A DNA stretch of 34,913 bases from Candidatus Aegiribacteria sp. (GTDB lineage Bacteria; Fermentibacterota; Fermentibacteria; Fermentibacterales; JCC-6). Each line of letters starts with the position of its first letter. The stretch's first letter is position 1. The DNA lies in NCBI GenBank assembly GCA_030600545.1, contig JAUVLV010000026.1, positions 1-34,913 of the forward strand. The letters run 5' to 3'. Both the position numbers and the translations under genes were made by a program. This document shows, piece after piece, positions 22,225-22,854 of the stretch. The notes under the pieces are model-generated. The model searched no databases and was not told where the DNA came from. It saw only the letters and a program-made list of their open reading frames with translations.

Positions 22225-22248
22225 GGGACGGGCTTGAAAGCCCGTCCC
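22225..22248. repeat. Perfect inverted repeat between convergent genes
   Basis: GGGACGGGCTT (22225-22235), GA, AAGCCCGTCCC (22238-22248): 11 pairs with a two-base centre, or nine pairs around a TGAA-type loop. It sits between the end of serS and the end of the convergent lipoprotein gene. There is no T-run on either side, so it is either an unusual bidirectional terminator or a copy of a dispersed palindromic repeat. Confidence 0.6.
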
Positions 22249-22270: not shown

Positions 22271-22543
22271 TCAGTGTGAACTCACCTGTATCTGCATCGC
22301 AGAACATTCCTCCATGAAAGCCCTGGCCACAAAACGACCTGCAAGGGCTTCTAAAGAGTGGGGATCTCTTCGGAGGGCACATTCATAGAGTGCAAACGCC
22401 GTAATGTAGTTCCCATCATCCATTGCCTCTCTGGCAATACTGACATAATTGTCAACATTGGCAGGGCAGGAGGATAGTGTTACACTGGCCAGTATTACCG
22501 ACGGCAGAAGCGCTACCAGTATGATTGGTATCAACCTCATCAT
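22271..22543 (-). CDS. Small predicted TPR lipoprotein under tandem c-di-GMP riboswitches
   Basis: 90 residues from the ATG at 22543, with GAGGGGG (minus strand, 22555-22549) five bases upstream; a GTG six bases further is less well placed. The N-terminus MMRLIPIILVALLPSVILAS is a signal peptide and LSSC (C26) a plausible lipobox, giving a mature lipoprotein of ~65 residues. This has one TPR-like helix pair (YVSIAREAMDDGNYITAFALYECALRRDPHSLEAL). It could serve as an adaptor for a larger envelope machine. It is the only gene directly downstream of the riboswitches. The family is not recognised; a partner-binding role is inferred from the TPR. Confidence 0.7.
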   Translation of the reverse strand: MMRLIPIILVALLPSVILASVTLSSCPANVDNYVSIAREAMDDGNYITAFALYECALRRDPHSLEALAGRFVARAFMEECSAMQIQVSSH

Positions 22544-22562
22544 GAGCACCCCCTCAATCTGG

Positions 22563-22578
22563 CCGGGGTTCCCCCCGG
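22563..22578 (-). promoter_or_regulatory. Hairpin between riboswitch and ribosome site, possible expression platform
   Basis: On the minus strand CCGGGG-GGAA-CCCCGG forms a six-pair hairpin with a GGAA loop. It sits between the second riboswitch and the ribosome site GAGGGGG. The CCCC arm could alternatively pair with GGGG of that site, so switching between the two pairings could control translation. There is no U-run, which argues against a transcription terminator. Confidence 0.4.
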
Positions 22579-22584
22579 ACAGAC

Positions 22585-22672
22585 GTCTGGTAACCCGGCT
22601 GTCCTTCCCTGTTTCCAGGGCTGGGATCCGTGGCTTTGCGTCCCGGAGTCTCCCCCGGTTTGCATTGAGTCA
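22585..22672 (-). ncRNA. GEMM-I c-di-GMP riboswitch, copy 2 (gene-proximal)
   Basis: On the minus strand the RNA reads GCAAACC, a stem closed by a GAGA tetraloop, GGGACGCAAAGCCAC, a variable stem, GGACAGCCGGGTTACC. This is the GEMM-I pattern. The G of GCAAACC (plus-strand position 22663), equivalent to G20 of the Vc2 riboswitch, is a G, which by family knowledge favours c-di-GMP over the 3',3'-cGAMP that A20 variants bind. The intercalating A of GCAAAGCC and the C of GGGTTACC that contacts the second guanine are present. It follows copy 1 after about ten bases. Boundaries are approximate because the outer stem is not resolved. Confidence 0.88.
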
Positions 22673-22673
22673 A

Positions 22674-22768
22674 ACGGTAACCCGGCTGTCCTTCCGCTTT
22701 CCCCTGAAGCGTCTGGGACCCGTGGCTTTGCGTCCCGGAGTCTCCCCCGGTTTGCATGACGGTGCTCT
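22674..22768 (-). ncRNA. GEMM-I c-di-GMP riboswitch, copy 1 (5'-most)
   Basis: The same elements as copy 2 are present on the minus strand: GCAAACC with G20 equivalent (plus-strand 22755), GGGGGAGACTCC stem-loop, GGGACGCAAAGCCAC, a longer variable stem (GACGCTTCAGGGG and following), then GGACAGCCGGGTTACC. The conserved core is nearly identical to copy 2 while the peripheral stem differs, as expected for functional tandem aptamers rather than a recent duplication. Tandem GEMM arrays are known from other bacteria and can sharpen or broaden the response. No strong promoter is visible in the 80 bases upstream; transcription could also come through from the radical SAM genes. Confidence 0.88.
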
Positions 22769-22854
22769 ACCGCCAGTTAATATTCTTGCGATTAATTTTA
22801 CTGATGTAAAGAGAGGTAGATATATATGCAGGGGATCGTAGCACTGATGATCCG

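Follow-up and report, generated by a model that had tools for sequence, protein, structure and literature searches.

A tandem GEMM-I leader with a changed position 20 upstream of a small TPR-like protein gene in Candidatus Fermentibacteria

The closest described relatives of the RNA analysed here are the c-di-GMP-I aptamers. According to the accessible part of PMC4744006, the substitution G20U abolished c-di-GMP sequestration by the aptamer Vc2 and reduced, without abolishing, that by Vc1; a 30,000-fold loss for a Vc2 G20 mutation is also cited there. A second relative, the cGAMP-binding GEMM-Ib aptamer Gs1761 of Geobacter, is likewise altered at position 20, which by our own reading of the equivalence corresponds to its A14 (PMC6274999, in the portion available). 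Leaders with two or more c-di-GMP-I aptamers have been catalogued, the available text of PMC9481103 reporting 347 doublets and 12 triplets. A two-domain arrangement is also found in the NAD+-I riboswitch, in which two homologous domains bind one cofactor and the RBS lies inside a P1-like stem (PMC10702441, as far as accessible).

The leader described here was found in a stretch of 34,913 nucleotides (hereafter the window) that falls in Candidatus Fermentibacteria; those of its relatives that bear a name belong to Candidatus Aegiribacteria, to Candidatus Sabulitectum or to further Fermentibacteria or Fermentibacteraceae MAGs. Like Vc2 (PDB 3IRW), it scores above the RF01051 cut-off and has P2, P3, A47 and C92, but both of its copies carry U at position 20, and aptamer 1 has neither A18 nor a clear local P1. 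The base that is A in Gs1761 is U or C in the leaders studied here. As in the published doublets, two c-di-GMP-I aptamers share one leader; here the aptamers abut, no terminator-like site was found on the coding strand, and the RBS can pair with a strand ahead of aptamer 1. Two homologous domains and an RBS inside a putative P1-like stem are shared with the NAD+-I riboswitch, whose aptamer fold and ligand are unrelated to those of this leader. The leader is a GEMM-I variant with a changed pocket, while tandem GEMM-I RNA as such is already common. An earlier, sequence-only note on this DNA had called tandem aptamers that control a single tiny lipoprotein in a polysaccharide locus unusual; the published doublets and triplets show that the tandem arrangement in itself is not.

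Two abutting aptamers and their distribution

An Rfam scan of the window returned two RF01051 (c-di-GMP-I) matches on the minus strand, with scores of 58.6 bits for aptamer 1 and 63.2 bits for aptamer 2 (Table 1). Both are full-length (model positions 1-87) and above the gathering score of 35, and they are the sole Rfam matches at the gathering threshold in the 34.9 kb. This is the outcome that the earlier note had set as its check, and the three motifs that it quoted, GCAAACC included, were found in both copies. The variable stems do differ, as it had stated, the P3 arms being unlike between the copies. The stretch of 281 nt that was folded is more stable than its shuffled versions (z of -5.64, with 0 of 200 shuffles as good). 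No further RF01051 match was found in the assembly that contains the window (2.29 Mb, 73% complete) at E values up to 0.001.

The small protein encoded downstream was identified, at E values of 4e-9 or better, in 31 of 42 genomes of the order (G000-G041), and RF01051 was matched under stricter filters in 30 of these 31. In the remaining protein-bearing genome, G034, the gene lies at a contig edge and the contig ends there. Neither RNA nor protein was detected in 11 genomes (G001, G005, G007, G009, G020, G023, G036 and G038-G041), and a renewed search of these 11 with our own covariance model gave no match. The RNA-protein unit is clade-wide in Candidatus Fermentibacteria, and the layout is tandem in 29 of the 30 RNA-bearing genomes. 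Together with the Rfam matches and the helix covariation described below, this conservation supports the proposal that a tandem GEMM-I RNA ahead of one small protein is maintained by selection.

The thirtieth genome, G011, has a single chimeric aptamer (L058:370-518) that appears to join the 5' part of aptamer 1 to the 3' part of aptamer 2, with strands a, b and f (see below) retained; it may reflect a real deletion or the collapse of a repeat during assembly. One additional RF01051 locus was found in the order, in G017 (L082:3821-3898), where a single aptamer with G20 lies upstream of another gene. A search for c-di-GMP-II RNA, which gave no positive-control signal, matched none of 41 genomes, 31 of them of this order. 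G008 has a second small-protein gene (L083, G008:C60), for which the end of the leader is on the contig and the aptamers would lie beyond the contig start. A contig filed under a Syntrophaceae MAG (L099) also bears the locus; it looks Fermentibacterial, and a binning error is possible.

The base at position 20

At position 11 of the RF01051 model, just ahead of GCAAACC with its paired GC, G is conserved, but both copies have U. We take this position to be G20 of Vc2, in a register set by the model alignment and the Vc2 numbering, because the next G, G21, pairs with C46, which adjoins A47. Residues G21, C46 and A47 are so named in the available text of PMC9049102, in agreement with the chosen register. 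Neither the G that marks the c-di-GMP subclass nor the A that marks GEMM-Ib (cGAMP) is present in either copy. The earlier note had read G at this position in both aptamers and had deduced c-di-GMP sensing from it; since the base is U, the reading was mistaken and the ligand argument built on it fails. By analogy with the Vc2 and Vc1 mutants in the accessible part of PMC4744006, U20 argues against tight c-di-GMP binding. With U in place of G20, and A47 and C92 retained, the most likely ligand is c-di-GMP, bound at weakened affinity.

Position 20 was compared with that of aptamers from outside the phylum. The background, which is part of all RF01051 matches and is unweighted for relatedness, consisted of 67 matches in 55 loci, 64 of them distinct; L082, which belongs to this phylum (G017), was removed, leaving 63 aptamers from 54 loci, 5 of which are among the 27 sequences used to build the model. 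Covariance-model alignment of these 63 gave G in 55 and A in 8 (before the removal, G in 56 and A in 8 of 64), superseding an earlier regular-expression count of 27 matches, some of them duplicated (G in 26, A in 1). Among 59 aptamers of the clade, a pyrimidine was found in 39 (21 U, 18 C), G in 17 and A in 3. The corresponding Fisher p of 2e-17 ignores the relatedness of the sequences and should not be taken as a probability. The other pocket residues are kept: A47 is present in 59 of 59 clade aptamers (by pattern) and C92 in 59 of 59, the pattern for C92 having also served to cut the aptamers out, with no end missed; the background values are 64 of 64 and 63 of 64, respectively. In 95 genomes of another phylum, which includes G126, a genome also in the background set, a purine-20 pattern matched 77 times (74 G and 3 A, as counted from the listed rows) and a pyrimidine-20 pattern once. 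That sole pyrimidine match, L181 (G166:C14:12694-12724), is a GEMM-I-like core with C at position 20.

The two copies differ in their preferences within the clade. In the window's genus (g1, which we take to be Aegiribacteria; 14 tandems), position 20 of aptamer 1 is U in 6, C in 7 and A in 1, and position 20 of aptamer 2 is U in all 14. In genus g5, which we take to be Sabulitectum (12 tandems), aptamer 1 has G in 11 and A in 1, and aptamer 2 has C in 10, A in 1 and G in 1. G019 combines G in aptamer 1 with C in aptamer 2, whereas both copies have G in G021 and G037, which are more distant relatives. Position 18, where A is usual (55 of 64 in the background), is A in aptamer 2 and C in aptamer 1 of the window; A is found in 29 of 29 tandems for aptamer 2, and C in 26 of 29 for aptamer 1, which makes ligand binding by aptamer 1 doubtful. 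A residue that we take as the equivalent of A18, A12 of the cGAMP aptamer, touches the ligand in simulations (PMC6274999, accessible part). In 25 of 29 tandems, neither aptamer combines A18 with a purine at position 20, whereas 54 of 63 background aptamers have both.

Among the matches listed in the open-access literature that we searched, mostly at the level of abstracts, no natural pyrimidine at GEMM-I position 20 was found; the same literature yielded no paper that treats Fermentibacteria and a riboswitch together. The novelty claimed here is limited to that searched literature.

Pairing helices and a putative ribosome-site switch

The elements of the leader are listed in Table 1. The consensus scan found three promoter-like sites in the region, with 0.8 expected. 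In 28 of 30 leaders, a -35-like element, TTTAC or TTGAC, starts 35-36 nt ahead of strand a; in the other two, G024 and G035, the script gave a later match, and TTTAC is seen by eye at about the same distance. Control by an intrinsic terminator was also considered; the only terminator-like site between 22100 and 23000 is on the plus strand, with 0.8 expected by chance.

Table 1. Elements of the leader and of the small-protein gene, in 5' to 3' order of the minus strand (coordinates are those of the window)
Feature	Position	Strand	Evidence or remarks
Promoter-like site TTTACA - 17 - AAGAAT	22782..22810	(-)	consensus scan
Strand a, GGCGGU; 5' hairpin start near the expected transcript start	22769..22774	(-)	a:b' covariation, per-sequence pairing
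Strand b, GAGCACC; putative anti-RBS, partner of f	22761..22767	(-)	99.5% of cells paired, 29 leaders
Strand b', ACCGUC; partner of a, overlaps b	22758..22763	(-)	pairing analysis
Aptamer 1 (RF01051)	22673..22766	(-)	position 20 = U at 22756, A47 at 22729, C92 at 22677; position 18 = C
Strand d, CGUUUG; 5' strand of aptamer 2 P1	22671..22676	(-)	starts one base after aptamer 1 C92
Aptamer 2 (RF01051)	22586..22672	(-)	position 20 = U at 22664, A47 at 22637, C92 at 22590; A18 kept
Strand e, CAGACG; 3' strand of aptamer 2 P1	22584..22589	(-)	pairing analysis
Variable stem-loop between aptamer 2 and Shine-Dalgarno	22556..22583	(-)	MFE fold; sequence varies widely in alignment
Shine-Dalgarno-like GAGG	22552..22555	(-)	sequence
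Strand f, GGUGCUC; between Shine-Dalgarno and start codon, partner of b	22544..22550	(-)	in all 30 leaders
Gene of the small, probably exported protein (89-90 aa) with a single TPR-like motif, stop included	22271..22543	(-)	start 22543 or 22540; homologues in 31/42 genomes
GC-rich hairpin after the gene, before convergent serS, without U tract	22225..22248	(-)	sequence, by eye

Because b and b' share bases, the helices a:b' and b:f are mutually exclusive; b:f encloses both aptamers. When a:b', d:e and both P2 stems were considered together in 29 leaders, 97.0% of cells were paired, and 10 pairs were changed on both sides, against a shuffled mean of 6.0 (0 of 500 shuffles as high). Versions of the same helices slid out of register reached at most 43.8% of paired cells and 3 two-sided changes. 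Further pair types in this set showed no excess, 55 of 500 shuffles being as high. Taken singly, a:b' has 97.7% of its cells paired and two-sided changes in 2 pairs; d:e has 91.4% of its cells paired, its outermost counted pair failing in 10 of 29 leaders. In the b:f helix 99.5% of cells are paired (slid controls at most 59.6%); in the 29 leaders it has no compensatory change, its variation being one-sided to G-U, plus one unpaired cell. Since f never varies, shuffling cannot test b:f (500 of 500 shuffles as high), and its constancy may be due in part to shared ancestry and to selection acting on the ribosome site. The leaders were located partly through the motif GGTGCTC, but all 30 RF01051-positive genomes were caught, so the constancy of f was not produced by motif-based choice. 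On the minus strand of the window, where the other genes were compared by motif count, GGUGCUC occurs once.

The two aptamers appear to differ in how P1 is closed. Aptamer 2 closes it through d:e. In aptamer 1, strand b has its partner in f, past aptamer 2. A local P1 (a:c), between strand a and the strand around C92, was also considered; most leaders can form it, usually with two G-U pairs, but it would consume C92 itself and competes with d:e. Strand b ends 5 bases ahead of aptamer 1 position 21. P1 of Gs1761 comprises G1-G8 and its J1/2 A9-A14 (PMC6274999, accessible part), and by this comparison b would sit about where P1 runs in Gs1761.

The relative stability of the two folds was estimated by secondary-structure calculations, which leave out ligand and tertiary contacts. 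Over 30 leaders, forcing b:f instead of a:b' shifted the ensemble energy by -1.7 ± 1.0 kcal/mol, with a range from -3.7 (the window) to +1.2 (G031) and a negative value in 29 of 30; for G037, four b:f pairs alone were forced. Without ligand, the probability of b:f exceeds 0.5 in 28 of 30 leaders, so the OFF state may be the default; of the two exceptions, G031 favours a:b' over b:f, and in G037 b:f pairs partly. In transcripts cut before f, a:b' forms with a mean probability of 0.91 (0.51-0.99). To imitate bound ligand, J1/2 of aptamer 1 was kept single-stranded; the RBS stretch was then unpaired with a mean probability of 0.19, compared with 0.43 when a:b' was held, and with J1/2 open the probability of b:f was 0.10 in G031, 0.09 in G037, 0.45 in G021 and 0.65 in G018.

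From the order of these elements, we infer the following sequence of events. Transcription would start near GGCGGU, and strand a would fold first into the a:b' hairpin, hiding the anti-RBS b. Aptamer 2 would make its own P1, the 5' strand of which would occupy the expected site of the 3' P1 strand of aptamer 1. Once f has been made, b could quit the hairpin and pair with it, closing a helix round both aptamers at the expected P1 of aptamer 1 and blocking the ribosome. Because b:f is read as P1 of aptamer 1, with aptamer 2 nested inside, ligand on aptamer 1 would favour closure of the RBS, the bound state being OFF and the unbound state, with a:b', ON. The ligand would be c-di-GMP, bound at weakened affinity, or a related molecule, and the output a protein that is small, probably exported and equipped with a single TPR-like motif, its gene lying near sugar-polymer genes in several species. 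We give about even credence to the whole of this account, in which the leader is a translational riboswitch, probably OFF when bound, with weakly bound c-di-GMP as the most likely ligand. It draws on the RF01051 matches, on the two-sided changes in a:b', d:e and the P2 stems, on the pairing of b:f, on the small energy difference between the two folds, on the co-occurrence of RNA and protein over 42 genomes, and on the c-di-GMP enzymes encoded in the window's own genome.

Output, c-di-GMP enzymes and alternative readings

The encoded protein, of about 90 residues, has an N-terminal helix that resembles a signal sequence and a single TPR-like helix pair. Judged by eye, a Sec signal with cleavage after LLA or ILA is likely. 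TPR_19 was matched in 23 of 26 members at E values up to 1 (best 6.6e-5); the window member, at E 0.017, is below the curated cut-off and, searched alone, matched no Pfam family at E 0.001. In the structure model, which like the second family scan used 89 of the 90 residues, the helix pair has a pLDDT above 90, and the PDB matches include TPR chains, none at E 0.001 or better. The earlier note had called the product a TPR lipoprotein. One TPR-like motif is indeed indicated by TPR_19 and the model, but a lipobox-like Cys, which the window protein has, is present in 10 of the 32 homologous sequences, so that a lipoprotein was discarded as a family-wide trait. Values of dN/dS were 0.11-0.39 in 10 of 11 pairs and 1.7 in the very close pair G002/G015.

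The placement of the gene inside a polysaccharide locus, also proposed in that note, holds in part. Radical-SAM/B12 and glycosyltransferase genes lie upstream in the window, and sugar-polymer genes lie downstream in three relatives scanned, but the small-protein gene has a promoter-like site of its own and converges on serS downstream. The next genes on the same strand in G022 encode a Wzy_C-like protein, which scores slightly below the Pfam cut-off, and a GT2 protein; the downstream genes encode GT2 and Bac_transf proteins in G018, a GT2 protein in G021 and a histidine kinase in G017, and a T2SSE ATPase with an MshEN domain is encoded farther downstream in G037. Other g5 loci have ORFs of similar lengths. 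Judged by eye, many of the 30 sequences have, downstream of the gene, a GC-rich hairpin that is similar to that in Table 1 and lacks a clear U tract.

The window's own genome has 14 GGDEF matches, 13 of them over the cut-off, and 10 HD_5 matches (HD_5 was searched in this genome alone). GGDEF was found in all 19 genomes of the genus (G000-G018), while EAL was found in none of these 19, the window's own included; G020 and G021, which belong to the same family, do have EAL. With EAL absent and HD_5 present, HD-GYP-type proteins would be the ones to degrade c-di-GMP in the window's genome. The GGDEF base-contact site could be read by pattern in 10 of the 14 matches, with Asp in nine and Asn in one (L168); one of these ten, L172, has an internal stop codon. 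L168 (G000:C21:20049-20531), the 807-aa GGDEF protein with Asn at this site, has GGDEF frames of similar length in many relatives.

It is unlikely, in our estimate, that the tandem binds a different ligand, such as another cyclic or linear dinucleotide, with the pyrimidine at position 20 (U-fixed in aptamer 2 of Aegiribacteria) reading the second base and marking a changed specificity, as A20 does for cGAMP. The uniformity of aptamer 2 (U in 14 of 14 tandems of the window's genus, C in 10 of 12 of g5), the retention of A47 and C92, and the rarity of such a pyrimidine elsewhere (0 of 63 background aptamers, 1 of 78 pattern matches in another phylum) are what this reading would predict, but the occurrence of U, C, A and G within one family is ill-suited to a single new specificity, and the distant relatives G021 and G037 carry G in both copies. 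Enzymes of the Hypr type that make cGAMP have Ser or Thr at the GGDEF base-contact site, and none of the ten readable sites in the window's genome has either residue. G20 and C92 are rated as less conserved than A47 in the available text of PMC9049102, which also cautions against reading too much into U20. A more elaborate version, in which a genus-fixed pyrimidine-20 variant of GEMM-I has two incomplete aptamers sharing one function, with aptamer 2 nested in the RBS-made P1 of aptamer 1, and senses a changed dinucleotide, or c-di-GMP through a composite pocket, we regard as rather unlikely. Most improbable is that the aptamers no longer bind anything and that the leader is a constitutive structure serving RNA stability or slow translation: U20 in both copies would fit, but the cores are conserved across two families of the order (A47 in 59 of 59), and the two folds are close in energy.

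Two further readings are possible, although each seems to us to fall well short of an even chance. One aptamer alone, or a composite of both, might bind the ligand, the other acting as a folding scaffold, by analogy with the NAD+-I riboswitch. The scarcity of tandems with any aptamer that has both A18 and a purine at position 20 points this way, as does the lack, in aptamer 1, of a local P1 partner that would leave C92 and d:e free. The single chimeric aptamer of G011, which keeps a, b and f, would also be expected, except that it may be a repeat collapsed in assembly; moreover, both cores appear by eye about equally conserved in the alignment. The sense of the switch could also be reversed, ligand-bound aptamers holding the 5' region so that b cannot reach f and the bound state is ON. 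The a:b' hairpin does dominate before f is made, and c-di-GMP-I switches of both senses are known according to the accessible part of PMC4744006, but b lies where the 5' strand of aptamer 1 P1 should be, and a:b' takes bases of J1/2. We retain as our preferred reading a translational switch that is probably OFF when bound and most likely responds to c-di-GMP at weakened affinity.

The leader is, under the stricter filters, almost the sole class-I c-di-GMP-type RNA in the 42 genomes, the G017 locus being the one other; because of this, if the preferred reading is true, the signal would act at the RNA level mainly through the small TPR-like protein. The nested layout would then let two aptamers control a single ribosome site by simple means. 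If the position-20 variation has the meaning proposed here, position 20 of GEMM-I would occur naturally in a third form, in addition to G (c-di-GMP) and A (cGAMP), which selection maintains with the pocket otherwise unchanged, and the tuning of ligand specificity or affinity would be testable directly on natural sequences.
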